NCBI GenBank assembly: GCA_913054455.1
Contig: CAJXIL010000026.1
Location: 1-33,225, forward strand
Reading direction: 5' to 3'
Length of the DNA stretch: 33,225 nt
From: an uncultured Roseobacter sp.
Lineage (GTDB): Bacteria > Pseudomonadota > Alphaproteobacteria > Rhodobacterales > Rhodobacteraceae
Below the pieces are notes generated by a model. The model saw nothing but the letters and a program-made list of their open reading frames with translations, searched no databases and was not told the DNA's origin. The stretch's first letter is position 1; each line of letters begins with the position of its first letter. Positions 24 through 28,694 of the stretch are shown here, piece after piece. Position numbers and translations under genes: made by a program.

Positions 24-3000
24 GTGTTTTTCGTGGCAAAGACAGCAGATCAGCGTTCCGTCTCTCCCCATTACAGCGGGGATATCGCCATTGTTGGCAT
101 GTCGGTCAATGTGCCGGGTGCCGAAGGGGTCGCGACCTATTGGAACAACCTGCGCGCGGGCATTGAATCCATTGTACCGCTCGAGCGCGAGGCCTTGCTC
201 GAGGCCGGCGTCTCTGCTGCCACCCTGGCTGATCCCAACTATGTCCCCCATGCCGCCCTGCTCGACGGCTTTGCCGATTTTGATGCCGAATTCTTTGGCT
301 TCAGCCCCAAAGAGGCTGCCATTCTCGACCCGCAACACCGGAAATTTCTAGAGGTCGCCTGGGGCGCGATGGAAAACGCCGCCCATCCGCCCGAAAGCCT
401 GTCAGAGCCCATCGGCGTCTATGCCGGCTGTGGCATGGGCAGCTATTTTTACTTCAATATCTGCTCCAACCCCGGCCTGGTGGATGAGGTGGGCATGTTC
501 CTGCTGCGCCACACCGGCAACGATAAGGACTTCCTCACCACCCGCGTCAGCCATGTCTTTGATCTCAAAGGGCCATCGGTGAATATCCAGACCGCGTGCT
601 CCACCTCTTTGGTGGCGGTGCACTACGCCTGCAAGGCCCTGCGCGAGGGCGAATGTGGAATGGCCCTGGCCGGTGGGGTCACCATCGATATGCCACAGGG
701 GCGCGGCTATCTTTATAAAGAGAACGAGATCCTCAGCCCGGATGGCCATTGTCACGCCTTTGACCATCGCGCTCAGGGCACTGTTTTTGGCTCAGGCGCA
801 GGAGCTGTTGCCCTGCGTCGGCTCGAGGATGCGCAAGCCGATGGCGATCACATCTGGGCCGTAATCAAGGGCTCTGCCATCAACAATGATGGCGCTGACA
901 AGGCCGGCTATCTAGCGCCTTCGGTCGGCGGTCAGGCCGCGGCCATTCGCAGCGCGCTGACAGAGGCCGATATTTCTGCCGACACAATTGACTATGTTGA
1001 ATGCCATGGCACCGGCACCTATCTGGGCGACCCGATTGAGGTCTCCGCCCTGACCGAAGCCTATCGTGACAGCACCGAGGCCGAAGGCTACTGCCGCATC
1101 GGTTCGGTCAAAACCAATATCGGCCACTTGGATACGGCTGCGGGTATTGCCGGTCTGGTCAAGACCTCTCTGGGCCTGAAACACCGCGAAATCCCGCCTT
1201 CGCTGGGATATGAAGCGCCCAATCCGGCTATTGATTTTGACAGCTCGCCCTTTCAGGTGAATGACCGACTGACGCCCTGGACCTCGCACCAGGGACCACG
1301 CCGCGCCGGGATCAACGCGCTAGGGGTGGGCGGCACCAATGCCCATGCCATTCTGGAGGAGGCCCCTGATCGCGGGCCTTCTGAGGAAAGCGATTTTCCC
1401 TTTCATGTGCTTTGCCTGTCCGGGCAATCCAAAGCCGCGCTCAACGCCAATGGCACAGCCCTGGCGGACTATCTGGAGACCAACCCAAAGGCCGATCTGG
1501 CAGATATCGCCTTTACCCTGAAACAGGGCCGCCGTGGCTTTGGGAAACGCCGGGTGCTGGTGGCAGAAACCGCAGCCGAGGCTGCCGCGCTGCTGCGGGC
1601 AGGGGATCCGCGCCAAGTGTTTGACCATGAGTGCTTGGGCGATGCGCCAGAGGTGGTGTTTTCCTTCCCTGGCGGTGGTGCGCAATATGCCGGTATGGCG
1701 CGGGATCTATACGAGACCGAGCCGGTCTTTGCCGATTGGATGGATCGCGGGCTGGACCATCTGCAACCACAGCTGAACTTTGACATGCGCGCACTCTGGC
1801 TGCCAGAGGATGGCGATGAGGCTGCCGCCAATACCCAGCTGCAAAAACCCTCGGCGCAATTGCCGCTGATCATGATCGTGGAATATGCGCTGGCACAGCT
1901 CTGGATCAGCTGGGGCATCCGCCCGGCAGCGCTTGTGGGGCACTCCATGGGGGAAAACACCGCCGCTTGTCTGGCCGGGGTGATCTCCTTTGAGGACTGC
2001 ATTGATCTGGTGCTGCTGCGCGGGCGTCTGTTTGACCGGGTGCCAGCCGGCGGCATGTTGTCAATCGCCCTGCCACTGGCTGAGGTTCAGGCGCTCATTG
2101 GTGACGATCTGGACATTGCCAGTGTCAATGCCCCCAGCCTCACAGCCGTCTCCGGACCGCAGGCCGCGCTAGACACGCTGGCCGCACAGCTCGCCACGCG
2201 GGACGTGGATTTCCAGCGCATTCAGATTGATATCGCTGCGCATTCGCGCATGCTGGACGGTATTCTGGCAGACTACCGCGCGTTCCTCGGCGGCCTGAAC
2301 CTGGCCGCGCCACAGCTGCCGGTGATCTCCAACCGCACAGGTCAGCCCCTGACGGCAGAGCAAGCCACGGATCCCGACTACTGGGTTGGCCAGCTGCGCA
2401 ATACGGTGATGTTCGCCGATTGCATCACAACGCTCGCCGCCACTCCTGGTCGGGTGTTCCTTGAGGTTGGTCCTGGCAAAGCGCTCAGCGCGTTGACCCA
2501 GATGTCACCTGCGGTACAGCCCAATCAGGTGCTTAGCGCCCTGCGCCACCCCGATCAGGATATCATGGACGACGCCTATTTCTTTGGCGTGATTGGTCGG
2601 CTTTGGGGCTGCGGCGTCGAAGCCGACTGGGATCAGATCTGGGGCGAGGCCAAGCGCCATCGCCTGCCGCTGCCCGGCTACCAGTTCCAAAGGAGCCGCT
2701 ATTTCATCGCGCCGGGCACGCAACAGCACCAGGAAAACGCAGCGCTGCCCCGGCGCCATGACAGCCTGGACGACTGGGGCTACCGCCCCACCTGGCGACC
2801 ACGTTTGGCCGATTGCATTCTGGATCTTGAGACGGAACTGGGGGACGCGCCGCAAAACTGGCTGATCTTTGCTGACGCCTGTGGGAAGGCCGCCGCTTGT
2901 GCCACCCGACTGCGTGCGGCGGGCCATCGTGTCAGCCTGGTGCACCCCGGTGATACCTACGCCACGCTTGCTCAGGACAACTATATCCTGCCCCCCGAAC

Positions 3001-6000
3001 AGGGGCGGTTTGGCTATGCTGCCCTGCTCGCCGATCTGGCCGAGGTAGATGCGCTCCCCCATCGCATTGCGCATTTCTGGCTTGTCACTGGACCGCAAGA
3101 GCACTTCCGCCCTGGCTCCTCCTTCTTTGACCGAAATCTAGAAATGGGCTTCGCGTCCCTGACGGCCCTGGCCCAGGAATTGGGAAGCCTGGACCTGGAA
3201 CATCCCGTCCATCTCACTGTCTTCACCACCGGTGCGGCGCAGGTCACCTCAGAAGCCCTCCCCTACCCGGAGAAAGCGATGATTGCCGGCCCAGCCGGGG
3301 TCATCCCGCGTGAGTTCCCACTGGTCACCTGTAGCACCGTAGATATCGAACTGCCCCAAGCCCCAGGCTTCCTCGCCACCCTACGCGGCGCGGAACCGGC
3401 AGATCTGACACCGCGCTTGTTGGAAGAACTCATGGCCGAACCCTCCAATGCTGCCGTGGCCTGGCGCGGCGACAAGCGGTTTGAAAAAAGCTGGCGCAAT
3501 CAGGCCCTTCCGGACCGCACAGATAAGACGGCAGCCGATCCAGCCATGGCCAATCTGAGCGGGTTCAAGCAGGGCGGCAGCTATCTGATCACAGGTGGCT
3601 TTGGCGGCATTGGCTTGACCACCGCGGCCCATCTAATGCGTCACTACGGGGCCAAGGTGAGCCTGGTATCGCGCACAGGTCTGCCGGACCGGGCCGACTG
3701 GCCACGCTATCTGACCACGCATAGCCCCGCCAATCGCACCGCCCAGCGCATCCGCGCGGTGCAGGAATTGGAACAGATCGGCACCGGCGCGGTGCTGTCC
3801 CTTGCCGCTGACATTTGCAACAGTGCCGAAATGCGCAGCGCTGTTGCCAAAGCTGAGGCCAAATTCGGTGCCCTCAACGGCGTGATCCACGGCGCAGGCG
3901 TCATTGAAGACGGGCCGATCCTGGCCAAATCAGAGGCGCAGATCGCGCGGGTACTGTCCCCCAAGGTGACCGGATTGCGGGTTCTGCATGATCTGTTCCC
4001 AGACGGCAGCCTGGACGTGATGGTGCTGTTTTCCTCTTCCTCGACCGTGACCCAGCCTGCGGGGCAAATCGACTATGTCGCCGCCAACGAATATCTGAAC
4101 GCCTATGCTGCCCATCGCCAGGGCGATCAAACGCGCGTCGTGGCGATTGACTGGGGCGTTTGGGCCGATACCGGCATGGCTGCCGAAGCCATGGCGGCGC
4201 GTCAGGGCAAGGCCACGCCAAGCCCACGCCAACGCTGCCCCCAGCCCCTTTTGGATGAGACCGGGTTTGATGCCTTTGGCAATCCGATCTTTGCCAGCGC
4301 GCTGGACGCTGAACAGTCCTGGTTGCTGGATGAGCATCGCACCAAGGACGGCACCGCACTGGTTCCGGGCACCGGCTATATCGAATGGATCGCCGAAAGC
4401 CTGGCTGCACAGGATCAAAAAACGCCCTTTGAAATCAAAGATCTATTTTTTCTGCGTCCCCTGGTGGTGGATCCGTCTGCCCCGCGTGACGTCCTGTTGC
4501 GACTGGTTGCGCAGGATACGGGCTATGCCTTTGCCACCCATAGCGCCCTGAGCACGGGGGGGTATGCTCTCAACGCTGAGGCAGAAATCAAGCTGCTGCC
4601 CGAGGCAAACACGCCACCAGCGCTGGATCTGACCGCAATCAGGTCTCGCTGTCCGCAGGTGAAAAATGCCACAGCGGATGACCACCTGCAGTCGCCCCAA
4701 GAGGCACATCTGAATTTTGGACCTCGCTGGCAGGTCCTGCAACAGATGGCCTTTGGCAGCGACGAAGGCCTGGCGCAACTCCGCTTACCCCAGGCCGCAC
4801 AGGGCGATGATTGCCTGCTGCATCCCGGTCTGATGGATCTGGCGACCGGCTGGGCCATCTCATTGGCGCCTGGCTACACTGGTACGGATCTCTGGGTCCC
4901 GCTGGGCTATGGCAGCCTTCTGGTGCTGGCACCGTTGACCGCAGAAATCCACAGCCATATGCGGCTCTGCCCAGGAGCCACAACACCAGAGAGCGCCAGT
5001 TTTGATATTACCCTCACCGACTCCACAGGTCGGGTGCTGGTTGAGATCACAGGCTTCCAGATGACCCGGCTTGCGGGCGGGTTTGAATCCACGCCCGATC
5101 AAACCCATGCGGATCACAGTAGCGAGGCCCTGGGCCTTACAGCCAGCGCGACGCAGCAACCGCTGTCAGAGGATGAGCGCCGCCTGCAGCTCAACATTGC
5201 CAATGGCATTCGCACATCTGAGGGTCCTGAGGCGCTGATCCGTGCGATCAGCACTGGGCACGCACAGATCGTGGTCTCCTCCCTGGATCTGCCCATGCTG
5301 ATCGATCAAGCGGCACAGGTCAGTGCAGGCGCGGCGGCGGATGAAAGCCAGAGCTTTGAGCGACCTCAACTGGATACGGATTATGTCGCGCCGTCCAACC
5401 CCGTGGAGGAACAGCTGGCTATGCTGTTCCAAAGCCTGCTGGGGGTTTCGCAGGTCGGGGTGGAGGACAGTTTCTTTGATCTGGGCGGTCATTCCCTAAT
5501 TGCGGTGCGGCTCTTTGCGCAGGTCAAACGCCACTATGATCTGGATCTGCCGCTGGCGACCCTGTTTGAGGCCCCCAGCGTTGCCGCATTGGCGGCGCTG
5601 CTGATCCAGCGCGGGGCGGGCGGACAAGACGCCAGTGCCGATCCTGCGTCCCAATCTAACCAAGCAGCACCCGCCGCCTTTTCCCATCTGGTGGTGCTGC
5701 ACCCTGGCTCCGGCACCGATGCCGCGCCTTTCTTTGTGGTGGCAGGCATGTTTGGCAACGTGTTGAACCTGCGCCATCTGGCGCAGGAGCTCGGCGGCGA
5801 GCGCCCGGTCTATGGGCTCCAGGCGCGGGGTCTGATTGGCGGTGATGATCCACATACTAGCATTGCCCAGGCCGCTGCGGACTATCTGGACGAGATAAAA
5901 CAGGTCCAACCCCATGGCCCCTATCTGCTGGGGGGCTTTTCAGGCGGCGGTATCACTGCCTATGAAATGGCGCAGCAATTGCAGTCATCAGGTGAAGAGA

Positions 6001-6554
6001 CCGCCGCTCTGGTTCTGCTCGACACCCCCCTACCGGTGCGCCCCAGCCTGAAACCTGTCGACAAGGCCTTGATCAAATTGCAGGAACTGCGCCGCAAAGG
6101 CGCAGGCTATCTGCTGGAATGGGGCAAGAACCGCATCCTGTGGGAAATTACCAAACGCCGCCAAGCCCCGGTGGAGACCGGCCAGGTGCCCGCCTTCAAC
6201 AACCGCAAGATCGAGCTGGCTTTTCGCCAAGCCGTCGAGAGCTACGCGTTGCAGCCCTGGAATGGCCCGCTGACCCTGCTGCGCCCCCCACTGGATCGCC
6301 ATTGGCAGGTCTCTGGCGGCAACTGGGTGAGTTCCGAGCGGGAATATGTCTTTGATGACAATGATTGGACAGGCTGGGCTCCAGGTCTGGAGGTCATCGA
6401 AGTGCCCGGGAATCACGACAGCATGGTTCTGGTGCCCAATGTGAGCACACTGGCGGCGGCTCTGAAGCCCCGGCTGGCAGGTCCGCCAGAGGCCAAGCAA
6501 TCAGCGCCTAATGCCGCCGATGCGCAGGCCACTTATGCAAGAGCCGCGGAGTGA
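24..6554 (+). CDS. Type I polyketide synthase, KS-AT-KR-DH-ACP-TE
   Basis: A single extension module with its own release domain. The ketosynthase (about residues 18-450) has Cys192 in TACSTSL, His328 in ECHGTG and His368 in KTNIGHL. The acyltransferase (about 543-850) has Ser641 in GHSMGE, a malonyl-like rather than methylmalonyl-like motif. The ketoreductase (structural half about 900-1180, catalytic half to about 1400) has the GGFGGIG nucleotide site, Ser1338 and Tyr1351, and an IED motif resembling B-type enzymes. The dehydratase-like hot-dog domain (about 1415-1700) has His1438 and Asp1605. The carrier has Ser1824 in LGGHSL, and the thioesterase has Ser1973 in GFSGGG, Asp2000 and His2131. 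There is no loading domain, so a partner must prime it; the NRPS two genes downstream is the obvious donor. Placing KR before DH is unusual for modular PKSs. An in-frame stop at 15-17 limits the start to GTG 24 or GTG 33; AAAGG at 16-20 sits very close to the first. Confidence 0.95.
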   Translation: MFFVAKTADQRSVSPHYSGDIAIVGMSVNVPGAEGVATYWNNLRAGIESIVPLEREALLEAGVSAATLADPNYVPHAALLDGFADFDAEFFGFSPKEAAILDPQHRKFLEVAWGAMENAAHPPESLSEPIGVYAGCGMGSYFYFNICSNPGLVDEVGMFLLRHTGNDKDFLTTRVSHVFDLKGPSVNIQTACSTSLVAVHYACKALREGECGMALAGGVTIDMPQGRGYLYKENEILSPDGHCHAFDHRAQGTVFGSGAGAVALRRLEDAQADGDHIWAVIKGSAINNDGADKAGYLAPSVGGQAAAIRSALTEADISADTIDYVECHGTGTYLGDPIEVSALTEAYRDSTEAEGYCRIGSVKTNIGHLDTAAGIAGLVKTSLGLKHREIPPSLGYEAPNPAIDFDSSPFQVNDRLTPWTSHQGPRRAGINALGVGGTNAHAILEEAPDRGPSEESDFPFHVLCLSGQSKAALNANGTALADYLETNPKADLADIAFTLKQGRRGFGKRRVLVAETAAEAAALLRAGDPRQVFDHECLGDAPEVVFSFPGGGAQYAGMARDLYETEPVFADWMDRGLDHLQPQLNFDMRALWLPEDGDEAAANTQLQKPSAQLPLIMIVEYALAQLWISWGIRPAALVGHSMGENTAACLAGVISFEDCIDLVLLRGRLFDRVPAGGMLSIALPLAEVQALIGDDLDIASVNAPSLTAVSGPQAALDTLAAQLATRDVDFQRIQIDIAAHSRMLDGILADYRAFLGGLNLAAPQLPVISNRTGQPLTAEQATDPDYWVGQLRNTVMFADCITTLAATPGRVFLEVGPGKALSALTQMSPAVQPNQVLSALRHPDQDIMDDAYFFGVIGRLWGCGVEADWDQIWGEAKRHRLPLPGYQFQRSRYFIAPGTQQHQENAALPRRHDSLDDWGYRPTWRPRLADCILDLETELGDAPQNWLIFADACGKAAACATRLRAAGHRVSLVHPGDTYATLAQDNYILPPEQGRFGYAALLADLAEVDALPHRIAHFWLVTGPQEHFRPGSSFFDRNLEMGFASLTALAQELGSLDLEHPVHLTVFTTGAAQVTSEALPYPEKAMIAGPAGVIPREFPLVTCSTVDIELPQAPGFLATLRGAEPADLTPRLLEELMAEPSNAAVAWRGDKRFEKSWRNQALPDRTDKTAADPAMANLSGFKQGGSYLITGGFGGIGLTTAAHLMRHYGAKVSLVSRTGLPDRADWPRYLTTHSPANRTAQRIRAVQELEQIGTGAVLSLAADICNSAEMRSAVAKAEAKFGALNGVIHGAGVIEDGPILAKSEAQIARVLSPKVTGLRVLHDLFPDGSLDVMVLFSSSSTVTQPAGQIDYVAANEYLNAYAAHRQGDQTRVVAIDWGVWADTGMAAEAMAARQGKATPSPRQRCPQPLLDETGFDAFGNPIFASALDAEQSWLLDEHRTKDGTALVPGTGYIEWIAESLAAQDQKTPFEIKDLFFLRPLVVDPSAPRDVLLRLVAQDTGYAFATHSALSTGGYALNAEAEIKLLPEANTPPALDLTAIRSRCPQVKNATADDHLQSPQEAHLNFGPRWQVLQQMAFGSDEGLAQLRLPQAAQGDDCLLHPGLMDLATGWAISLAPGYTGTDLWVPLGYGSLLVLAPLTAEIHSHMRLCPGATTPESASFDITLTDSTGRVLVEITGFQMTRLAGGFESTPDQTHADHSSEALGLTASATQQPLSEDERRLQLNIANGIRTSEGPEALIRAISTGHAQIVVSSLDLPMLIDQAAQVSAGAAADESQSFERPQLDTDYVAPSNPVEEQLAMLFQSLLGVSQVGVEDSFFDLGGHSLIAVRLFAQVKRHYDLDLPLATLFEAPSVAALAALLIQRGAGGQDASADPASQSNQAAPAAFSHLVVLHPGSGTDAAPFFVVAGMFGNVLNLRHLAQELGGERPVYGLQARGLIGGDDPHTSIAQAAADYLDEIKQVQPHGPYLLGGFSGGGITAYEMAQQLQSSGEETAALVLLDTPLPVRPSLKPVDKALIKLQELRRKGAGYLLEWGKNRILWEITKRRQAPVETGQVPAFNNRKIELAFRQAVESYALQPWNGPLTLLRPPLDRHWQVSGGNWVSSEREYVFDDNDWTGWAPGLEVIEVPGNHDSMVLVPNVSTLAAALKPRLAGPPEAKQSAPNAADAQATYARAAE

Positions 6555-6559
6555 CGATC

Positions 6560-7579
6560 ATGAGCAAAGGCAGCATTCTCACCATCATCCTGAACTACCG
6601 CACCCCTGAGATGACCCTCAGAGCGGCCGAAGCCGCCTTGACGGAGATGCAAGACCTCCCCGGTGAGGTCCTGGTGATCGACAATGGCTCGGGCGATGGA
6701 TCCTGGGAGGCCCTGCAGGCCGGAGCTGCCCAGCGCGGCTGGCAAAACAGCAAGAAGATCCGCTTGCATCAATCCATGGTCAATGGCGGCTTTGGCGCCG
6801 GCATGAATATCGGCTTTGCCGCCGGGCTGTCGGATGGCAAGGCCCCAGACTATTACTACCTGCTGAATTCTGATGCCTTTGTGCAGGGGCAGACCATCTC
6901 CACTTTGCGCGATTTTCTGGCCGATCATCCCGGTGCCGGACTGGCGGGGTCCTATGTACATGGCACCGATGGCAGCCCCCATCGCACCGCCTTTCGCTTT
7001 CCGTCAATCGCGGGCGAGTTTGAAATGGCCGCGCGCACTGGCGTCTTTACCCGCCTGCTCGCCCCTTGGGTGGTGGCGATGGAGATGCCAAAGACCCAAA
7101 CCCAGGTGGATTGGACCGCCGGGGCCAGCCTGATGATCCGCCAACCCGTCATCGAAGAGACCGGCGGCTTTGACGAGACATTCTTTTTGTATTTCGAGGA
7201 AACCGATCTGTGTCGCCGCGCCGCCCGCGCGGGCTGGCGCACCCATTATGTGCCTAACAGCAAGATCGAACACCTCGGCTCTGCCTCAACTGGCATGAAA
7301 GACTGGAACCGCACGCCGGCCTATTGGTTTAAGTCGCGCAGCCATTATTTCACCAAATCCCACGGCCGTAGCTATGCGGCGCTTGCCACTTTGGCCCGCG
7401 TCGTCGGCAGCTGCATTTACGGGCTGCGCCGCCTGGTGCAGGGCAAACCCCAGGCCGATCCCAATCATTTCCTGAGAGATCTCATCTCTCATGCCCTGAC
7501 GCCTGCGCCTGCGTCGCGCAGCCCCTCATCCACCCGTGAAACGCGCCTTCACGCCCCGGTTTCGGAGGATCTAAAATGA
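6560..7579 (+). CDS. GT2 family glycosyltransferase (rhamnosyltransferase-like)
   Basis: A cytosolic GT-A fold glycosyltransferase of family 2, expected to move a sugar from a nucleotide donor to a lipid-linked or assembly-line acceptor. The N-terminus has the Rossmann-like [10 protein letters not shown] strand and [10 protein letters not shown]. The middle has LLNSDAF at the metal-binding position, and the C-terminal half has the family signature [20 protein letters not shown], followed by an amphipathic tail. ATG 6560 is chosen because GGAG at 6548-6551 lies 8 bases upstream; a GTG at 6551 overlapping the PKS stop is the alternative. The gene sits between the PKS and the NRPS, and its stop overlaps the NRPS start (ATGA), so it is translationally coupled to both. 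The sugar and acceptor cannot be read from sequence. Confidence 0.9.
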
Positions 7580-10500
7580 GCCAATTTTCCTGTGTCGTCA
7601 TCGGCAATGAATCCCTGTTGATCGGCTGTGCCGAAGCCCTGCTGGCCCAGGGCCACCAGATCACGGCTGTGGTCTCCACCGATGCCGATATCCGCGCCTG
7701 GGCCAAGGGCAAAGCACTGCCTCTGCTGACAAATCCCGCTGAACTCACCCAGGCCTTTGATTGGCTGCTGTCGATCGCCAACCTGCGGGTGATCCCAGAG
7801 CCCATTCTGGCCCTGGCCCGTAAGGGCGCAGTGAACTTTCACGATGGCCCGCTGCCGCGCTATGCCGGATTGAACACGCCCAACTGGGCATTGATGGCCG
7901 GAGAGGCCCAGCACGGTATCACCTGGCATATGATGGAGGGCGGCATTGACGAGGGCGATATCCTCGCCCAGCGCCTGTTTGATATTGCCGAGGATGACAC
8001 CGCCTTTAGCCTCAATTCCAAATGCTATGCCGCAGCCATGGACAGCTTTGGCGAGGTGCTGGATCAGCTGAGCGCCGACGACCTGCAACGCCAGCCGCAG
8101 GATCTGTCCCTGCGCAGCTATTTTTCCAAGGATCATCGCCCTGCAGCTGGGGCCGTTTTGGACTTTTCTCAGACCAGTCTGAGCCTGAGCCGCCTGGTGC
8201 GAGGCTTGGACTATGGCTCCTATTGGAACCCCCTGAGCTGTGCCAAAATAGCACTGGAAGACCGAGTTTTGCGCGTCGGCAAGGCAGGTCCTGCGGAGGG
8301 CAGCGGTCCAATTGGCACAGTTTTGTCAGTGACAGGGGCTGTTGTCACCATCGCCGCCTGCGATGGCGCGATTGCGCTGGAAGATATCACCAGCCTGGCA
8401 GGCAAAAAACTGGACTTGCCCTCGCTCTTCAAGGTTGGTCAGCAGCTCCCTGCTGTTACCCCTTCTGAGGCGAAAGCCATAGAGGCTGCCCTGACCCAGA
8501 GCCAGGGGGGAGAATCGCACTGGCGCCGTGCCCTGGCCGCAATGCAGCCGGTCACTGTGCCCCTGTCTTCCGCGACCAACCGCCCGGTGGGCATCAGCCG
8601 CCTGGAAATTTCCCTGCCTGCATCTTTGTCTCAAGAGCAGATCGTCACTGCGACGCTGGCTTGGGCTTTGCTCAGCACAGGTGAGCAACAGGCCGATATC
8701 GCCTATGCCGCATGGCCCGCAGCGACCGGGACCGCTGCGCATCTGGTCTCGGATTGGATTCCTTTGCAGGGCGCGCGTGATTCATCTGTTAACACTTTAG
8801 CGACTCAGATACAGATAGATGTGGAAAAGGCCCGCAGGTTTGGCGGTTTTGCCCTGGATCTGGTGGCCCGCGCCCCAGAACTTTCAGCGCAAAACATGCC
8901 GGGTATCGGGTTTACAGCGGATCGGGATGCAGCCCTGCCAGGTTGCACTATGACGGTTTCGCTGAATGAGGGCGCCTTGGCGCTGCATGTGGATGACACC
9001 CGGCTGGATGCTCGGGCCGCGGAGCTGCTCGCCGCGCGGCTCGAACATACACTGGGGGTCATCGCATCTCATCTGACCTCTGCCACCGATTGCACGCTGT
9101 CAGAGCTGTCTATCCTGCCCGAGGCAGAGCGCCGGTTGCTGCTGGAGGACTGGAACCAGACCGCAACCGAGCTGCCAGCAGAGAGCACCATTCAGGCCGC
9201 CTTTGAGACTCAGGTAGCCCGCACCCCCAAAGCCACGGCCCTGGTGTTTGAGGGCGAGAGCTACAGCTACGAGGGGCTGAACGCCCGCGCCAATGCTCTG
9301 GCCCGCCAGCTGCAAGCCACCGGCGTCAAGCCCGGCACCCATGTGGGCGTCTATATCAAGCGCTCAGCCGATTTGATGGTGGGCGCCTTGGCGGTGCTCA
9401 AAGCCGGGGGGGCCTATGTGCCTCTGGACCCCGCCTACCCAAAAGATCGCATCGCCCACTATCTGTCAGACAGCCAGGCCAGCGTTGTTGTCACCCAGGG
9501 GGCCCTGCGCGCCGAGCTGCCCGACACCGCGGCACAGATCGTCACAGTGGATAGCCTTGCCGTTACCGAGGCCCTGGCTGAGAATGTCACCAGTGGAGCC
9601 ACTGGCGCCGATCTGGCCTATCTGATCTATACCTCCGGCTCTACCGGCACGCCCAAAGGCGTCATGGTGCGCCAGGACAATGTGGCCAATTTCTTTGCCG
9701 CCATGGATGCGCGCATCCCCTACAAGGCAGGCGATGCCTGGCTGGCGGTGACCTCGCTGTCCTTTGATATCTCAGTGCTGGAGCTTTTCTGGACCCTGTC
9801 GCGCGGTTTCAAATTGGTACTCTCCAGCGATGAAAGCCGGCTTGAGCTGTCCAATGGCCCCATCGCGATTTCCGACAGGCGGATGGATTTCAATCTGTTT
9901 TACTGGGGCAATGACGATGGTCCCGGCCCGCGCAAATACCATCTGTTGTTGGAAGGCGCCAAATTCGCCGATGCCAATGGCTTTAACGCGGTCTGGACGC
10001 CCGAGCGCCATTTCCACGCCTTTGGCGGCCCCTATCCCAATCCTTCTGTCACTGGCGCGGCTGTTGCCGCCGTAACAAACAACCTGAGTGTGCGGGCAGG
10101 CTCCTGCGTGGCACCGCTGCACCATCCCGCCCGGATCGCGGAGGAATGGTCGGTCATTGACAACCTCACCAATGGGCGGGCTGGGATCGGCATCGCTGCA
10201 GGTTGGCAGCCAGATGATTTTGTCCTGCGTCCCGAAAACACACCGCCCGCCAACAAACCCGCAATGTTTGACTCGATCGACACCCTGCGCAGGCTCTGGC
10301 GCGGCGAAGAGGTGGAATTCCCCCGCAAGGATGGCTCAATGCATGCGGTTGTCACCCAGCCGCGCCCGGTATCAAAGGAACTGCCAGTCTGGGTGACCAC
10401 GGCCGGCAATCCCGAGACCTGGCGCGAGGCGGGTGAAATTGGCGCCAATGTGTTGACGCACCTTTTAGGGCAAAGCATCGACGAAGTCGGCGGCAAGATC

Positions 10501-12189
10501 CGTATCTATCACGATGCCCTACGGTCCGCCGGTCATGATCCAGCGGATTTCAGGGTCACCCTGATGCTGCACAGCTATCTGGCTGAAACCCGTGAGGAAT
10601 CCCGTCGCATCGCCCGCGAACCAATGAAGGACTACCTGCGCTCGGCCGCTGGGCTGATCAAGCAATATGCCTGGGCCTTCCCCGCCTTTAAACGCCCCAA
10701 GGGCGTCAACAACGCCTTTGACATGCAGCTCGACGCACTCAGCGCCGAGGAGATGGAAGCAATTTTGGACTTCGCTTTTGAACGCTACTTTGAGGACTCT
10801 GGGTTGTTTGGCACTGTGGACGATGCCCTCGCCCGCACTGAGGAGCTGAAACGCATTGGCGTGGACGAAATCGCCTGTCTCATCGACTATGGCATCGCAC
10901 CAGATGTGGTGCTGGAAGGGCTGAAACCCCTTGCCGAAGTGCTGAAACGTGCCAATACTCCGCAAGATCTGGCTGCGGATGACTTCTCCCTCTCGGCGCA
11001 GATGATGCGCCAGGGTGTCAGCCATATGCAATGCACCCCCTCCATGGCGCGCATGCTGGTTCAGGATGACGAGGCTCGCATGGTGATGGGGCGACTCAAA
11101 CATCTGCTGGTTGGCGGCGAAGCCCTGCCCGGCGATCTGGTCGGTGCCCTGCGTGAAGCAACGCCTGCGCAGATCCACAATATGTATGGCCCTACTGAGA
11201 CCACGATCTGGTCGACCTCAACCAGCCTGACAGCCCCCGTAACGGGCGTGGCCAGTATCGGCACGCCGCTGGCCAACACCCAGGTCTATGTGCTGGACGA
11301 AACCCAACGCCCAGTCCCTATGGGCGCAGCAGGAGAGCTCTATATCGGTGGCACCGGTGTCACCTCGGGCTATTGGCAACGGGCGGAACTGACGGCAGAT
11401 CGTTTTGTGACGCTGCCCTTTGCCAATGCCGCGCTTTATCGCACCGGCGATCTGGTGCGCTGGACATCGGATGGCCAACTGGCCTTCCTGGGACGCACCG
11501 ACCATCAGGTCAAAATCCGTGGCCAGCGGATCGAACTGGGCGAAATCGAAGCTGCCCTGGCCAGCCAGCCTAATGTCACCGGCGCGGTGGTTGTGGAACG
11601 GCGCCTGGGCGACGACAGCCAACTGGTGGGCTATGTCACCCAGGACTCAGCCAATCCAACGGATCTGGACGCGATCAAGAGCGATCTCTCGCGCCATCTT
11701 GCCGCCGTCATGGTGCCAAGCCATCTTGTCGCCCTCGAGAGCTTTCCGCTGACACCAAACAAGAAAATCGACCGCAAGGCTCTGCCAGCGCCAAAACCCG
11801 CAGCGCCACAAGCGACGCAGGCGGTTGCTGCCGCCGTGGTGCCGCTCAGCGCGGGCGTGCAGGCGGAAATCGCCAAGGTCTGGTCGCGCATTTTAGGGGT
11901 GGAAGGCATTGGCGCACAGGACAATTTCTTTGCCTTGGGCGGCCATTCGCTGCTGGCGGTGCAGTCGCATCGCGACATTCGTGCGGCATTGGACACGCCA
12001 AAACTCTCGATCACCGATATCTTCCGCTTTCCTACCCTTGCCGGGCTCGCCTCCCATATTGAGGCCCTTGCAGGTGGCGGCTCAAAGCCCGATGATCTGG
12101 TGGAAGATGAAGCCGTACAGGCCGCCAAATCCGACACCATGTCGAAACGGCGGGCGATGCGGGCAAACCGCAAAGCACGGGCAGGATGA
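7576..12189 (+). CDS. NRPS initiation module: formyltransferase, C-like remnant, A domain with inserted luciferase-like monooxygenase, PCP
   Basis: Residues 1-190 resemble the methionyl-tRNA formyltransferase catalytic domain, with Asn87, His89 and Asp125 spaced as in the Fmt triad; about 195-285 resemble its C-terminal OB-type domain. Residues about 325-515 look like the C-terminal half of a condensation domain and lack HHxxxDG. The adenylation domain starts near 535, with A3 at 680-696 ([12 protein letters not shown]) and A4 at 729-740. It is interrupted at about 770-1126 by an FMN-dependent luciferase-like monooxygenase ([19 protein letters not shown]), then resumes with A5 at 1202 (NMYGPTETT) and a lysine at 1397. 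The carrier serine is Ser1458. The pocket read by eye is DILQLGMIWK, near the glycine code. The layout matches the known MupA/Atu3671 (TIGR04020-type) insertion and the LgrA-style F-A-PCP starter. No thioesterase is present. CGGAGGAT at 7563-7570 is the ribosome site. Confidence 0.93.
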
Positions 12190-12872
12190 CGGCACAGAGT
12201 TCAACCCAAGAGATGGAGCGGCTGGCACTCGCGCGGCCGCTCTTTGCAGATGACATCGCCCTGGCGCTGGTCAACCCTTTGGCGGATCCGCCGGCGCCCT
12301 TTGCCGCAGAGAGCGCCTGCCTGTCGCCCAATGCCGTTGACAAGCGCCGTCGCGAATTTGCGGCTGGGCGCGCCGCAGCCCATGAGGCGATGGCGCTTTT
12401 GGGGCTGGACCCTGTCGCCATTCCCGTGGCGGAAAACCGTGCGCCTGTTTGGCCCAGTACCCTTGTCGGCTCAATCACCCATACCCGCAGCTGCGCCATG
12501 GCTGCGCTCGCCCAAAAGGGCGAGATACAGGGCCTAGGCCTTGACGTGGAAGAGGACAAACCCCTGGCAGATGACCTATGGCCCGCGATTTGTTCGGCTC
12601 AGGAACAGGAGTGGCTGCGTCAGCAAAACAATCCGGGGCAGCTCGCCAAACTGGTGTTTTGTGCCAAGGAGGCGGCCTACAAATGCCAATTCACCATCAG
12701 CGAAAGATACTATGGTTTTGATGGCATGGAGTTGACAATAGACTTGGAAGCGCGCCGATATTCAGCCCGGTTTTGCGCCGATCAGCCCCCCTTCAATTGT
12801 GGCGATCAGATCTCTGGGCGCTTTGCCATTGGTGCTGGCCTGATCGTCGCCACAGCTGAGTTACGGAGCTGA
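12186..12872 (+). CDS. 4'-phosphopantetheinyl transferase, Sfp/EntD type
   Basis: Transfers the phosphopantetheine arm of CoA to a serine of carrier domains, here most likely Ser1824 of the PKS and Ser1458 of the NRPS encoded upstream. The Mg-binding GLDVEED motif gives Asp120 and Glu122, and the family signature KEAAYK gives Glu162 and Lys166. The upstream [13 protein letters not shown] segment matches the SxSHxxG-like substrate region of EntD proteins. At 228 residues it has the normal length for the family. The ATG overlaps the NRPS stop by an ATGA junction, which ties its production to the assembly line it should activate. Confidence 0.93.
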
Positions 12873-12875
12873 TCC

Positions 12876-13820
12876 ATGATGCCACGTCGCGCCCTTTTTG
12901 CTCTGCCTGCGCTGTTTGCCCTTTGGCCACTGGCCCGCTGGTGGCAGCCCAGCCCCCTGCCCGCCGTGCCAGTGCTAGCGCCACCGCAGCAGGCCCTGCG
13001 TGTGTTTCACCTGGGCCATTCTCTGGTGGGTCCAGACATGCCGTATATGCTGGCGCAGCTGGCCCCCCAAGGGCATCGTTTCAACAGCCAGTTGGGGTCC
13101 GGCACCAATCTGAAACAGCATTGGGAACCTGATCTGGCGATTCTGGATTTTGAGACGACCAACCACCCACCTGCCTACCGCGACGCGCGTGAAGCCATCG
13201 GTTCTGGCGAATATAATGCCGTGGTCCTGACAGAAATGGTCGAGCTGCGCGATGCCATCCGCTATTTTGACGGTGCCGCGTATTTCCACCGGTGGGCCCA
13301 GTTGGCCAGATCTGGCGCGCCGACAACCCGTGTCTATCTCTATGAAACATGGCATCCCCTTGATGACCCGGCGGGCTGGGAAAATCGTATCGCCGAGGAT
13401 CTCGATACCCTCTGGCTGGAGGGACTCAGCGGTCAAGACAGCCGAGCCGCCCCAGAGCGCCCAGCCTATTTGATTCCAGTGGGACAGGTTATGGCCGCAG
13501 TTGCACGGGCCGCCGAAGCTGGTGAAATCGAGGGATTAATGGCGCGCGAGGATCTGTTTGCCCAGACCCACGAGGGGACGCAGGACACGATACACTTCAA
13601 TGATTTTGGCGCCTACATTGTCGCCCTGACGCACTATGCAGTTCTGTATCAGCGCTCCCCGGTCGGATTGCCGCACCGGCTCAACCTCGCGGATGGCAGC
13701 GCTGCGAATAGCCTGCTCTCTGGCGCGGCGCGGCGGGTGCAACAGATCGTCTGGGACACCGTTCTGGCCCAGCCCCGCACCGGGCTTGCTGAAGCCGCAT
13801 CCGCAGGAGAGCCCACATGA
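12876..13820 (+). CDS. Membrane-anchored or exported SGNH-fold protein
   Basis: A 314-residue protein with an N-terminal basic-hydrophobic stretch (residues 1-23, rich in Ala, Leu and Trp), read as a signal peptide or signal anchor. The remainder has SGNH hydrolase features: Ser49 in LGHSLVG (GHS in place of GDS), a GSGTN block, and a terminal DTIHFND giving Asp237 and His240. The usual block III Asn is not evident; VLTEMVEL occupies that place. YLYETWHPL is shared with the next gene, so the two form a paralogous pair. It could be an esterase or acyltransferase acting on a glycan or on the assembly-line product outside the cytoplasm; the substrate is unknown. GGAG at 12865-12868 supports ATG 12876. 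The gap to the phosphopantetheinyl transferase gene is 3 bases. Confidence 0.75.
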   Translation: MMPRRALFALPALFALWPLARWWQPSPLPAVPVLAPPQQALRVFHLGHSLVGPDMPYMLAQLAPQGHRFNSQLGSGTNLKQHWEPDLAILDFETTNHPPAYRDAREAIGSGEYNAVVLTEMVELRDAIRYFDGAAYFHRWAQLARSGAPTTRVYLYETWHPLDDPAGWENRIAEDLDTLWLEGLSGQDSRAAPERPAYLIPVGQVMAAVARAAEAGEIEGLMAREDLFAQTHEGTQDTIHFNDFGAYIVALTHYAVLYQRSPVGLPHRLNLADGSAANSLLSGAARRVQQIVWDTVLAQPRTGLAEAASAGEPT

Positions 13821-16345
13821 ATCTCGAGACCCTGGTCACCTCTGTGGTGATGGTAGGGCATTCGCTATTTGGGCCGGATAATCCGCAAATGCTGCAACAG
13901 CTCCTAGCTGAGCAGCCGGGTGCCACGGCAGAGGTAACGGTCCAAGCCCAAATCATCAATGGCGCGCCGCTGAGCTACAATTGGCAACACGCCGATAGCG
14001 CCGAGGGAATCAATGCCCGCCAGCGGCTCGCCACACCAGTGGATGCGGTAATTGTCACCGAGGCCATCCCCCTGGCCAATCACCTCAAGTGGAGCAATTC
14101 TGAGGCGGCCGTGATTCAGTTTTATGAGCTGGCCCGCGCCGCCAACCCGGATGTGCAGTTCTACCTGCAAGAGACCTGGCACAGTCTCAACAGCGGCACC
14201 GGCGCCGAAGTGCCCTTTGACGAGGGGGCCGCGACCCCTTGGCGCGACCGGCTGGAGCAAGATTTGCCCCGCTGGCAGGCCCTGGTGGATGGCGTCAATG
14301 CAGCCACCAATGGCACAGTGCAGTTGCTGCCTGCCGGGCAGGCCATGGCGCGGCTGGATGATGCGATTCAGGCAGGTACCCTGCCGGGGCTGAAGTCGAT
14401 CTCTCAGCTGTTTGCCGACGACATACACCCAAATGCGCTGGGGTTTTATTACCTCAGCCTAGTGCAATATGCGGTGCTGACCGGGCAGGATCCACGGGGG
14501 CTTCCCACTCAGCTTCAGGACCGATGGGGGCAGGCCTATCAGGCGCCATCGCAGAACCTGGCGCAGCAGCTTCAGCATCTAGCATGGGCGGCAGCTGGCG
14601 GGGTGGAAACCGCATTTGCCGCTCTGCCCGAAGACCCTGCCCCTCTGCCCCATGAACCTGAACTGGCCAGGCTCAATGGACCGGTGCCCGAAGATCTGCC
14701 GCCCCAGAATTTGATGCAGAAATCGCTCAGCCAACAGCCCATCGCAATGAACCTGATGCCCGTTGCCGACTGGAGCCCGCAGGCCCCCTTTTTGGACCAT
14801 TTCAAAACCGCGCGCCCCTGGATCGGGCATCTGCCCGGCCAATGGGGCGGTGCCAGCGAGGCCGATCTGGCGCAGGCGGGCTACCTGGATGAGGCGGGCT
14901 GGCCCACCGCTTTGCCCCCCGAACTTGGCTCTATCGGGACCGTTATCCTGACAGATCTGCCAGAAAGCGCCCTTAGCCTAGCTGGGCGCTACGTGCTGCG
15001 TTTTGACGGTCAGGGCATTATCGAGGTCTCCGGGCGCGCAAGCAATCAGCGCTACGGGGAGGGGGAAGTCTCTTTTGATTTCACCCCGGGCCCCGGCCCA
15101 GTAGAAATCCGGTTGCAACGCTTCGGCAAGGCAGGGGATTACCCGCGCAATATCACTGTTGTGAAAGAAGAGCATCTGGCACGGTTTGCCACTGGCGAGA
15201 TCTTTAACCCGGACTGGCTGGAGATTTTGGACGGCTTTGAGGTGCTGCGGTTCATGGATTGGATGAGCACCAATGACTCGCCGCTTATTGGCTGGGAAGA
15301 TCGTCCACAGGTGAGCGACTATAGCTGGGCGCGCAGTGGCGTGCCGCTGGAGATCATGCTGGCTCTGGTGAATGAACTGGGGAGCGATGCCTGGTTCAAT
15401 ATGCCCCATCGCGCTGACAACAGCTATATCCGCAACTTTGCCCGGGCAGTTGAGACGGATCTGGACTTTGATCTGAAGACCTATGTGGAATACTCCAATG
15501 AGGTCTGGAACTGGCAGTTTGAACAAGCGGCCTGGGCCGACTCCCAAGCGCAGGACCGTTGGGGCGGGCAGGATCTGTGGATGCAGTACTACGGTGGCCG
15601 CGCCGCTGAGGTCTCGCAAATTTGGAGCGGCGTCTTCGGCGCGGCAGCCAGGTCCCGCCTGGTGCGGGTGTTGGCCACCCAGACGGGCTGGCTCGGGCTG
15701 GAAGAGCAAATCCTGACTGCGCCACTCTGGGTCGCTGAAGCCCCTGACCGAGAGGCTCCTGCCAGCTATTTTGATGCCTATGCTGTCACTGGCTATTTTG
15801 GCGGCATCCTTGGCCTCCAAGAGCGCGCTCCTATTCTGCGGGCCTGGATCGCGGATAGCCAGCAACACGCCCGCGACGCAGCTGCCGCCCAGGGGTTGCG
15901 GGGCCCCGAGGCAGAGCAATTCGTTTCTGAACATCAGTATGATGTCGCCAGTGTACAGGCGGCAGCCGAGCTCACCGATGGGCTGGTTACCGGCGACAGC
16001 AGGGATACGCTCAGCGATCTATTGGGTCGGGTTTTGCCCTATCACAGCGAGGTCGCAGACCAGCATGGGCTGGATCTGATCATGTATGAGGGCGGCAGCC
16101 ATGTAGTGGGTATTGGCCCTATGACCGAAGATCCGCTGCTCACAGGCTTTTTCACCCATTTCAATTATACGCCCGAGATGGGCGCGCTCTACGCAAGGCT
16201 ACTCGGCGGCTGGCAAGAGCTGGGCGGCAGCCTGTTCGGCGCCTATGCGGATGTGGCGGTTCCGGGCAAATGGGGCAGTTGGGGAGCCCTGCGCCACCTC
16301 CGCGACGACAACCCCCGCTGGGCCGCTTTGGAGGCTGTGAAATGA
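13817..16345 (+). CDS. SGNH-fold domain fused to glycoside-hydrolase-like TIM barrel
   Basis: An 842-residue two-part protein. The N-terminal about 270 residues are paralogous to the preceding gene: Ser16 in VGHSLFG, VIVTEAIPL, YLQETWHSL and Asp201/His204 in ADDIHPN. After a Pro-rich linker (about 275-310) comes a beta-rich segment (about 340-450) and then a barrel-like domain. That domain has YVEYSNEVWN with Glu562 after Asn, as in the acid/base of clan GH-A enzymes, and IMYEGGSH with Glu758, which resembles the nucleophile strand. This suggests cleavage or remodelling of a polysaccharide combined with an ester or acyl activity, but no GH family can be named from sight. No clear signal peptide is present, unlike its neighbour. 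AGGAG at 13805-13809 supports this ATG, which overlaps the upstream stop. Confidence 0.72.
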   Translation: MNLETLVTSVVMVGHSLFGPDNPQMLQQLLAEQPGATAEVTVQAQIINGAPLSYNWQHADSAEGINARQRLATPVDAVIVTEAIPLANHLKWSNSEAAVIQFYELARAANPDVQFYLQETWHSLNSGTGAEVPFDEGAATPWRDRLEQDLPRWQALVDGVNAATNGTVQLLPAGQAMARLDDAIQAGTLPGLKSISQLFADDIHPNALGFYYLSLVQYAVLTGQDPRGLPTQLQDRWGQAYQAPSQNLAQQLQHLAWAAAGGVETAFAALPEDPAPLPHEPELARLNGPVPEDLPPQNLMQKSLSQQPIAMNLMPVADWSPQAPFLDHFKTARPWIGHLPGQWGGASEADLAQAGYLDEAGWPTALPPELGSIGTVILTDLPESALSLAGRYVLRFDGQGIIEVSGRASNQRYGEGEVSFDFTPGPGPVEIRLQRFGKAGDYPRNITVVKEEHLARFATGEIFNPDWLEILDGFEVLRFMDWMSTNDSPLIGWEDRPQVSDYSWARSGVPLEIMLALVNELGSDAWFNMPHRADNSYIRNFARAVETDLDFDLKTYVEYSNEVWNWQFEQAAWADSQAQDRWGGQDLWMQYYGGRAAEVSQIWSGVFGAAARSRLVRVLATQTGWLGLEEQILTAPLWVAEAPDREAPASYFDAYAVTGYFGGILGLQERAPILRAWIADSQQHARDAAAAQGLRGPEAEQFVSEHQYDVASVQAAAELTDGLVTGDSRDTLSDLLGRVLPYHSEVADQHGLDLIMYEGGSHVVGIGPMTEDPLLTGFFTHFNYTPEMGALYARLLGGWQELGGSLFGAYADVAVPGKWGSWGALRHLRDDNPRWAALEAVK

Positions 16346-17205
16346 ACACCTCTGACGCGCGCACCGATCAGACCGCTCCGCAGGTGAGCGTATTGATCCC
16401 GGCCCATAACGAAGCCGACTACATCGCGGCTTGTCTCGCCTCCCTGTTTGCCTGCGCCCTGCCCGAGGGACTGCGGGGCGAAGTCCTGGTTTTGGCCAAC
16501 GGCTGTACCGATGCCACCGCCCGTATCGCGCGTGCCCAACAGCCCACGCCTCAGTGGCAGTTAAAGATCCTGGAGCTGCCGGAGGGCAACAAGCTCTATG
16601 CGCTGAACGCGGGGGATGCTGAGGCCCGCGGCACTGTGCTGATCTATCTGGACGCAGATGTCACGATGGAGCCTACACTCATCGGCCAGATCACAAGCGC
16701 GCTTGGGACTGCGCCCCCCCGCTACGTAAGCGGCACACCACAACTGGCACCAGCGCAGAGCGCGCTGACCCGCGCCTATGGCCGGTTTTGGATGCGTCTC
16801 CCCTTTGTCCAGAATGGCACGCCGGGTTTTGGCCTCTTCGCGATGAACCGCGCCGGACGGGCCCGCTGGCAAAACTGGCCGGATATAATCGCAGACGATA
16901 CCTTTGCCCGGCTCTCTTTCGCCCCGGATGAGCGGGTCAAATTGCCCAGCCAGTACTGCTGGCCGATGGTCGAGGGGTTTCGCAATCTCACGCGGGTGAG
17001 GCGCCGTCAGAATGCAGGTGTGGCAGAGCTGAGCGAGACCTACCCCGCGCTTATGGCCAATGATGACAAGCAAAAGCTGCCCCTTAGGCACCTCTTGCGT
17101 CTGCTGTGCTCAGATCCGGTGGGTTTTGCGGCCTATGCGCTAGTATCTGCCGCTGTGAAATCACCCCTATTTCGCAGCCAACAGCGCTGGACGCGCGGTC
17201 GCTAA
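16342..17205 (+). CDS. GT2 family glycosyltransferase
   Basis: A 287-residue family 2 glycosyltransferase. VSVLIPAHNEADYI opens the GT-A fold, VLANGCTD follows, and IYLDADVTM supplies the DxD metal site (Asp104 and Asp106). FGLFAMNRAGRARW lies in the acceptor half. No transmembrane segment is obvious, so it probably acts on the cytosolic face of the membrane. The true start is ATG 16342, which overlaps the stop of the SGNH/GH gene (ATGA); longer readings from 16270 run inside that gene. It ends the seven-gene operon and faces the convergent GT4 gene across 195 bases in which I see no clear terminator. Confidence 0.88.
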   Translation: MNTSDARTDQTAPQVSVLIPAHNEADYIAACLASLFACALPEGLRGEVLVLANGCTDATARIARAQQPTPQWQLKILELPEGNKLYALNAGDAEARGTVLIYLDADVTMEPTLIGQITSALGTAPPRYVSGTPQLAPAQSALTRAYGRFWMRLPFVQNGTPGFGLFAMNRAGRARWQNWPDIIADDTFARLSFAPDERVKLPSQYCWPMVEGFRNLTRVRRRQNAGVAELSETYPALMANDDKQKLPLRHLLRLLCSDPVGFAAYALVSAAVKSPLFRSQQRWTRGR

Positions 17206-28327: not shown

Positions 28328-28694
28328 CGGGTCACCCTCTCCCTGGCCCAGGGCGGCCTGCGCACCGAGCATCTCTGGTAACACCTTAGGTGTAAAAGAT
28401 GGCAATTTTCAGGAAACATAGCGCCCCCTTCTGGGACGTGTCATGGCACAGAGGGTTCCATATGCGCTCAGCCGACTGCGTCGGAGTGAGTCGGGAATGG
28501 CCTTCGTAGCAAAGACAAGAACAGTCCAATGCCCCAGCCAGGATTTGTTTCTGAAATACAGGTGAAATAAATCAAATTTGTCCAAAATACGGCAAAAATT
28601 TTGCTCAAATGCACCACCACCTTAATTTGCCCAGGTGCGTTTGCCGCGTGAGTTCCACTGCGGCCGCGGAGGACATTTTTAAGAGGTGTTTAGT
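28328..28694. other. 367-bp divergent intergenic region
   Basis: Separates the phosphotransferase (-) from the repeat protein gene (+). Apart from the 13-bp palindrome it has an AT-rich patch (about 28555-28605) that probably contains the promoter of the repeat protein gene, and AAGAGG at 28681-28686 as its ribosome site. No RNA gene or further protein is seen. Confidence 0.45.
28381..28393. promoter_or_regulatory. Perfect 13-bp palindrome upstream of the phosphotransferase
   Basis: ACACCT-T-AGGTGT is a perfect dyad with one central base. If the phosphotransferase starts at ATG 28327 it lies 54 bases upstream, a sensible operator position; if the TTG 28405 start were used it would fall inside the coding region. 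The binding factor is unknown. Confidence 0.35.

Follow-up and report, generated by a model that had tools for sequence, protein, structure and literature searches.

Which building block is prepared by a nonribosomal peptide synthetase (NRPS) module whose head is a formyltransferase (Fmt) and whose adenylation (A) domain is interrupted by a monooxygenase, and for what product? The question is raised by a starter module encoded within a 33,225-nucleotide stretch of DNA from an uncultured Roseobacter sp. (contig CAJXIL010000026.1, assembly GCA_913054455.1), hereafter the window. An original prediction, drawn up from the sequence without database searches, described the module and proposed that its amino acid, left unnamed, is both N-formylated and oxidised on the carrier. 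The present analysis confirms the domain arrangement, including a luciferase-like monooxygenase (LLM) inside the A domain, and finds the module to be a real, conserved and widespread formylating-head variant of the glycine-activating A domain with built-in monooxygenase (Gly A-MOx). The prediction, right about the domains, had missed a condensation-domain remnant, a partner polyketide synthase (PKS) with a thioesterase (TE), and a surface-polysaccharide setting.

Domain architecture and conservation of the module

In both the list of open reading frames (ORFs) and the translation of the window, the frame stays open over the whole gene, encoding a 1537-residue protein that runs from the Fmt head through a condensation remnant and a split A domain to a peptidyl carrier protein (PCP) domain (Table 1). 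Pfam places Formyl_trans_N at residues 68–153 (E 1.9e-17), AMP-binding in two stretches, the best at 543–755, AMP-binding_C at 1323–1397, PP-binding at 1431–1495 and Bac_luciferase at 784–1098 (E 4.4e-48). Among the domains that the prediction expected a search to recover, only Formyl_trans_C falls short, remaining marginal at 20.5 bits under a cut-off of 21.1. The insert belongs to the NCBIfam family TIGR04020, scoring 470.5 bits against a curated cut-off of 244.45 over residues 772–1122, and TIGR01733 is split into two stretches, the best at 1126–1339. SolG, the best NCBIfam match (485 bits, cut-off 2200), was rejected as general A-domain similarity.

The A3, A8 and PCP motifs start at residues 685, 1306 and 1455; since A4 starts at 730 and A5 at 1202–1204, the LLM sits between A4 and A5, close to the predicted residues 770–1126. 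The A4-to-A5 spacing of 474 residues, estimated earlier at about 460, recurs as 471–481 in 20 further genera and is 94 in the neighbouring insert-free A domain of locus L070. The uninterrupted frame, the intact triad described below and the likeness to LgrA and TIGR04020 all hold as predicted.

Chance does not account for this architecture, because 50 relatives align with it over more than 1300 residues, the length required of every alignment row. These relatives comprise 43 of the 46 searched loci (L004–L046) and seven plasmid loci, giving 51 rows with the window, and L047, L048, L049 and the split L054 were excluded. Mean identity of the relatives to the window is highest in the LLM (83%), followed by the PCP (75%), the large A-domain parts (66–68%), Fmt (59%), the small A subdomain (58%) and the remnant (43%). 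With one genome taken per genus, the LLM was matched in 104 of the 295 genera of the window's family (E ≤ 1e-100), a count of LLM matches, rather than of whole modules, that includes a few partial ones or ones at 48–64% identity. A class-wide search gave LLM matches at E ≤ 1e-60 in 11 of 385 cases, four of them (42–44% identity) with no Fmt match in frame.

The Fmt triad N87/H89/D125 falls inside the stretch aligning with the Fmt domain of LgrA, and, as in that protein, A and PCP domains follow. The Asn-His-Asp pattern is present in 50 of the 51 aligned rows, including the window, with L022 gapped there, and in 19 of 20 further genera. The exception is L114 (genome G508, contig C6), where the genome has two LLM matches and the copy read shows N-F-S; judged by these residues, its Fmt is possibly catalytically dead. 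In Deinococcus, Fmt forms a separate gene in which both Fmt domains exceed their cut-offs.

Residues from about 303 to 530 correspond to the C-terminal part of a condensation (C) domain, according to a profile built from 19 family members. Against the PDB this profile matches McyB best (residues 398–465, profile positions 156–223, E 1.1e-8), then Txo2 (E 2.8e-7), both near the C-domain end, and hhalign aligns the remnant with a Nostoc condensation domain over 57 columns (E 8.1e-7). The remnant is degenerate, as Pfam Condensation detects just three of the 19 members (best E 0.0082), and the HHxxxDG motif is absent from all 51 aligned rows and from the 20 further genera. This pattern suggests that a C-A-LLM-PCP module may have had the front part of its C domain replaced by an Fmt head. 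In trees of 33 LLM rows and 31 A-domain rows, both with long branches, the Fmt label takes two changes on the LLM tree, which is compatible with a single origin of the Fmt fusion, and three on the A tree, where the starred branches force at least two.

Probable glycine loading and proposed reaction of the inserted oxidase

Read through motif anchors, the A domain carries the ten-position code DILQLGMIWK in 32 of 51 rows, among them the window. The remaining 19 vary only at code position 299 (15 M, 3 F, 1 A), and the 20 further genera give DILQxGMIWK in 19 cases and DILQFGFIWK in one. The window's code is identical to that printed for four glycine-activating domains with a monooxygenase (Gly-MOX) (PMC12283262). 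The monooxygenase between A4 and A5, a precedent that the original prediction did not name, is a feature of the Gly A-MOx modules of myxothiazol and melithiazol, and the glycine code suits modules of this kind; of the complete upstream condensation domain found there, the window module has only the remnant.

The oxidase of the myxothiazol/melithiazol modules, lying between a4 and a5, is described as hydroxylating the glycine alpha carbon, after which the chain is cleaved, and solanimycin B, with its oxidase domain between a8 and a9, as retaining hydroxyglycine (PMC10204066). A further account likewise describes A domains that recruit glycine and an oxidase that hydroxylates Calpha (PMC11342130), and a glyoxyl thioester is named in both as what cleavage leaves behind. 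Moreover, the palmerolide LLM, assigned by its authors to TIGR04020, is a proposed alpha-hydroxylase (PMC8739492), and the puwainaphycin monooxygenase domain has a proposed role, again at the alpha position, in forming the 3-amino-2-hydroxy acyl chain (PMC4219810). The nearest solved structure to the window's LLM is that of PuwE (6ket, 333 bits). Together, the match to the Gly-MOX code, the published oxidases and PuwE as nearest structure point to glycine as the likely substrate and to hydroxylation at Calpha as the likely reaction. Three Flavin_Reduct matches exceed the cut-off in the window's genome, none on the window's contig, and one of these reductases could supply reduced flavin mononucleotide (FMNH2) to the LLM; the LLM gene of Streptomyces L069 has a flavin reductase gene next to it.

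Partner polyketide synthase and polysaccharide setting

The module is the third gene of an operon that runs PKS, GT2 glycosyltransferase, module and 4'-phosphopantetheinyl transferase (PPTase), with consecutive genes overlapping by four bases. The PKS contains ketosynthase (KS), acyltransferase (AT), ketoreductase (KR), dehydratase (DH), acyl carrier protein (ACP) and TE domains. Across 40 rows, comprising the window and 39 relatives with at least 95% coverage, the residues KS C192/H328/H368, AT S641, KR Y1351/N1355, ACP S1824 and TE S1973/D2000/H2131 are identical throughout, leaving the KR serine as the sole varying catalytic residue (34 S, 5 T, 1 V). In Deinococcus the PKS ends in a condensation domain rather than a TE, an arrangement that would fit transfer to an amine.

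The 46 searched loci contain the module or part of it in 45 cases, the PKS and GT2 genes in 43, the PPTase in 42, Wzx in 38, and Wzx or the chain-length protein in 40. A strict adjacency test is passed by 39. Among the seven failures, L045, L048 and L049 lack the PKS, the module frame of L022 is broken near its start, L047 runs into the end of its contig, and in L006 and L036 the four genes are present and correctly ordered but have longer, overlapping ORF calls.

Within 20 kb on either side of the module, PKS, GT2 and Wzx or Wzy occur in all 20 genera inspected, with Wzx in 15 (one partial, at a contig end), Wzy in 18, both in 13, PPTase in 18 and the chain-length protein in 19. These genera were a manual choice of about one row in five from the list of 104, where the contig left room, so that the count covers them and not the other 84, among which are the window's own genome and G331; three stretches are contig-cut to 35.6, 28.9 and 38.2 kb instead of 40. 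Wzx and Wzy were scored with custom profiles, the Wzy profile deriving from upstream ORFs chosen by an N-terminal pattern. Because the 3.88 Mb of the window's genome (86% complete) contain two Polysacc_synt_3 matches, including that in the window, a chance flippase match in 40 kb is expected in about 2% of cases or less, a thin control drawn from one genome and one flippase family and set beside the looser Wzx-or-Wzy criterion.

The window carries a Wzx-type flippase far above its cut-off, and its chain-length and tyrosine-kinase matches are significant yet below their equivalog cut-offs (Table 1). Wzy_C is matched weakly, under its cut-off, by homologues lying upstream in L004 and L007; L004 also has WecG-type and GT2 transferases upstream, and Rhizobium L053 combines Wzx with Wzy_C over the cut-off (4.7e-15). 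The genes around the module and PKS of Aminobacter, Shinella, Paracoccus, Ruegeria and Deinococcus, partly in other orders, carry annotations for a flippase or polysaccharide biosynthesis, for a sugar transferase or O-antigen ligase and for glycosyltransferases; L051, L057 and L080 each have a gene labelled 'sugar transferase'. The sole Wzy_C match in the window's genome (G000, contig C130:143-544) reaches 25.8 bits, below the cut-off, near a contig edge, and that contig may be the piece neighbouring the window's own.

Several other sequences deserve mention. The conserved 314-aa and 842-aa proteins encoded after the PPTase both show, by eye, an SGNH/GDSL-like GHSL motif and a later His motif, and neither has a convincing PDB match by profile search; the former is possibly secreted, again by eye, and the latter has a long, unassigned C-terminal part that contains an invariant SNEVWNWQF stretch. 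Towards the window end lie a 432-aa ORF with Gly-Ser-Thr repeats and no Pfam match (28686-29984), possibly a surface protein by eye, and an FkbM-family methyltransferase gene (32027-32746). The roseobacter operon also appears, with about 68% identity, in L016, whose record bears the title Nocardioides marinus DP1N28-1 and is probably mislabelled. An Acidimicrobiales metagenome-assembled genome (L045:10175-15163) encodes Fmt-A-LLM-PCP, with 41% identity in its best segment.

Table 1. Coordinates of the module, its domains and the neighbouring genes in the window.
Feature	Position	Strand	Remarks
NRPS starter module, Fmt / condensation remnant / A (part 1) / LLM / A (part 2) / PCP	7576..12189	+	1537 aa
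Formyltransferase head	7576..8445	+	residues 1-290; triad N87, H89, D125
Truncated condensation domain, C-terminal part only	8482..9165	+	residues 303-530; no HHxxxDG
A domain part 1, A3 and A4	9163..9840	+	residues 530-755; code positions 235, 236, 239 = D, I, L
Inserted FMN-dependent LLM, TIGR04020	9889..10941	+	residues 772-1122
A domain part 2, A5, A8, A10	10951..11784	+	residues 1126-1403; completes code DILQLGMIWK
Peptidyl carrier domain	11866..12060	+	residues 1431-1495; GGHS
One-module PKS, KS-AT-KR-DH-ACP-TE	24..6554	+	2176 aa
GT2 glycosyltransferase	6551..7579	+	4-base overlap with each neighbour
PPTase	12186..12872	+	Pfam, NCBIfam
Conserved 314-aa protein, SGNH/GDSL-like (weak)	12876..13820	+	DUF4886 E 0.27; in 37/46 loci
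Conserved 842-aa protein, GDSL-like N-terminal part (weak)	13817..16345	+	Lipase_GDSL_2 E 0.019, below cut-off; in 38/46 loci
GT2 glycosyltransferase	16270..17205	+	Pfam
GT4 glycosyltransferase, EpsE-like	17401..18624	-	230 bits vs 400 cut-off
Wzx-type oligosaccharide flippase	18886..20253	+	Polysacc_synt_3 E 8.6e-42, 143.8 bits vs 23
Polysaccharide chain-length determinant-like	20309..21589	-	TIGR03007 E 1.7e-22, below cut-off
Polysaccharide tyrosine autokinase-like	21742..22854	-	TIGR03018 E 4e-19, below cut-off

Candidate products and known systems

On balance, we think it probable that the glycine-specific starter feeds the one-module PKS and that together they build a small acyl unit destined for a surface polysaccharide of the Wzx/Wzy type; as the gene travels with the PKS inside a surface-polysaccharide cluster in many relatives, decoration of the outer sugar coat is its most likely role. 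Formylation and oxidation of the loaded amino acid on the carrier would follow naturally from the domains present. In such a scheme the operon's PPTase would arm the PCP, the split A domain would load glycine, the Fmt head would N-formylate it with N10-formyl-tetrahydrofolate (formyl-THF), and the LLM, using FMNH2 and O2, would hydroxylate the alpha carbon to yield N-formyl-alpha-hydroxyglycyl-S-PCP. The PKS would then extend this starter with malonyl units and reduce the product, and the TE, or in Deinococcus the terminal condensation domain, would transfer the chain to its acceptor, in all likelihood a sugar or an amine within the polysaccharide repeat, ahead of export by Wzx. We infer each of these steps, and with them the order of formylation before oxidation, the extender unit and the number of PKS cycles.

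Several observations weigh against this proposal. The window, whose contig breaks off 23 bases upstream of the PKS gene, contains no Wzy, nor does any initiating sugar transferase appear among its 19 scanned ORFs. The module and PKS occur with no Wzx/Wzy in the stretches read of L055 and L072 (Methylobacterium and kin) and L071, searched by BLAST with the window proteins, and of Aliiroseovarius L056, assessed by annotation; L055 shows a single GT4-like match, with 31% identity across 162 aa, where its stretch ends, and that of L071 is cut inside the PKS. The 24.6 kb of L045 contain no PKS homologue. Within the PKS itself, the DH keeps its His and Asp in surroundings that are atypical of the canonical motifs, and may therefore be inactive. 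Attachment to a sugar and the accompanying chemistry are likewise our extrapolation from the genes, which a free glycosylated metabolite would fit too.

Such a free, perhaps glycosylated, small molecule would require the same enzymology, the polysaccharide genes being mere neighbours on a shared island or plasmid. The PKS terminates in a TE, the Methylobacterium-like and Aliiroseovarius loci show no Wzx/Wzy in the stretches read, and genome papers list such clusters, presumably the same one, as secondary metabolites (PMC8273931, PMC4062626); the occurrence of Wzx or Wzy in all 20 inspected genera and the persistence of the polysaccharide link under other gene orders, in Rhizobiales and Deinococcus, nevertheless make a free product rather unlikely. 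Compatible with either destination is a myxothiazol-like cleavage, in which the hydroxylated N-formylglycine carbinolamide would break into formamide and glyoxylyl-S-PCP, the PKS would start from glyoxylate, and Fmt would provide a minimal N-acyl group. Here the A4–A5 position of the oxidase, the Gly-MOX code and the glyoxyl thioester described for myxothiazol and melithiazol (PMC10204066, PMC11342130) argue in favour, but solanimycin B is reported to retain its alpha-hydroxyglycine (PMC10204066) and formyl-THF would be spent at a cost only to be discarded, so that we rate cleavage as unlikely.

Far less credible is N-hydroxylation of glycine by the LLM, giving an iron-binding N-formyl-N-hydroxyglycine hydroxamate of the hadacidin kind: glycine, Fmt and a flavin monooxygenase would fit it, yet the relatives described in the sources act, or are proposed to act, on the carbon alpha to the thioester, and the 19 scanned window ORFs include no siderophore transport gene. 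It is just as doubtful, and in our view very improbable, that Fmt is vestigial and the module makes only alpha-hydroxyglycyl or glyoxylyl units. Fmt does evolve faster than the LLM (mean identity 59% against 83%) and the L114 copy lacks two triad residues, but the triad persists in 50 of the 51 aligned rows and in 19 of the 20 added genera, and Deinococcus encodes Fmt as a separate gene with both domains over their cut-offs.

If the pair does decorate a surface polysaccharide, the assembly line would tie NRPS/PKS chemistry to the cell surface in a marine-rich family, perhaps bearing on surface attachment and on algal or animal association. A bolder version, offered tentatively, envisages a dedicated system for modifying polysaccharides in about a third of the genera of the window's family, taken from its named relatives to be Rhodobacteraceae in the broad sense, and treats Fmt and oxidase as one device that would convert glycine into a reactive C2 starter, either an N-formyl carbinolamide or a glyoxylyl thioester, to be extended by the PKS and placed on the repeat unit by the TE or terminal condensation domain. 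The resulting N-acyl-hemiaminal or aldehyde-bearing polysaccharide, of a kind not known to us, could cross-link or receive a sugar on its new hydroxyl from the operonic GT2.

The original prediction knew of no characterised product, and none was found for this architecture in the open-licence literature searched. Phaeobacter inhibens has the PKS Inhi_1972 and the NRPS Inhi_1974 (PMC4062626), probably orthologues of the window PKS and module. A hybrid cluster is reported on plasmid pCP157_02 of Paracoccus marcusii, and PKS-NRPS-HSR hybrids in 60% of the Paracoccus strains compared, with no product named there (PMC8273931); L080 lies on this plasmid, whose hybrid cluster probably contains the L080 module.

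A siderophore cluster, first expected by analogy with Atu3671 and fabrubactin, was dropped, the neighbours being polysaccharide genes and the 19 scanned ORFs containing no siderophore transport gene. The mark of a fabrubactin-type siderophore cluster would be an FbnE-like monooxygenase accompanied by the Dmaq genes FbnL/FbnM. FbnE itself is treated in PMC12971057. The closest solved structure to the LLM, PuwE, differs in belonging to a PKS/NRPS hybrid protein (PMC4219810).

The LgrA initiation module of linear gramicidin shares the passage from Fmt to A and PCP, but has no LLM match in its chain and, in the aligned stretches, leads from Fmt to the A domain without a long remnant. The formylglycine starters OzmO and CongA of oxazole polyketides feed a PKS from an Fmt-Gly-PCP unit and are not known to contain an LLM. 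Rhizobium leguminosarum L075 and Bradyrhizobium L076, compared as plasmid stretches only, encode Fmt-A starters whose Fmt and A domain are 37–47% identical to the window's, with no LLM match in frame; the best part-1 match of L076 lies in a later module. Conversely, the C-A(LLM)-PCP modules of Nostoc L068 and Streptomyces L069 carry the LLM at A4–A5, spaced much as in the window (464 and 475, against 474) and with a code resembling the window's, but their condensation domain is complete, including HHxxxDG, and they lack Fmt. The Nostoc module (L068:12519-17969) also contains an FkbM methyltransferase domain in its later A-domain part, which would perhaps cap the new hydroxyl.

The closest counterparts by description are the myxothiazol/melithiazol Gly A-MOx modules, of the proteins MtaG and MelG, with a flavin monooxygenase at A4–A5 of a glycine A domain and presumably the Gly-MOX code. 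Those modules work on a chain that is already acylated, which is cleaved and released by a TE, whereas the window module is a starter with an Fmt head and a mere remnant of the condensation domain. Relative to known Gly A-MOx modules, this head, the remnant devoid of HHxxxDG and the polysaccharide setting are unusual. If the proposed chemistry holds, the module would also offer a compact, one-protein system for studying the action of an A-domain-embedded oxidase on the aminoacyl carrier of the same protein, with the Nostoc and Streptomyces modules as natural comparators lacking Fmt and the Rhizobium starter as one lacking the LLM.

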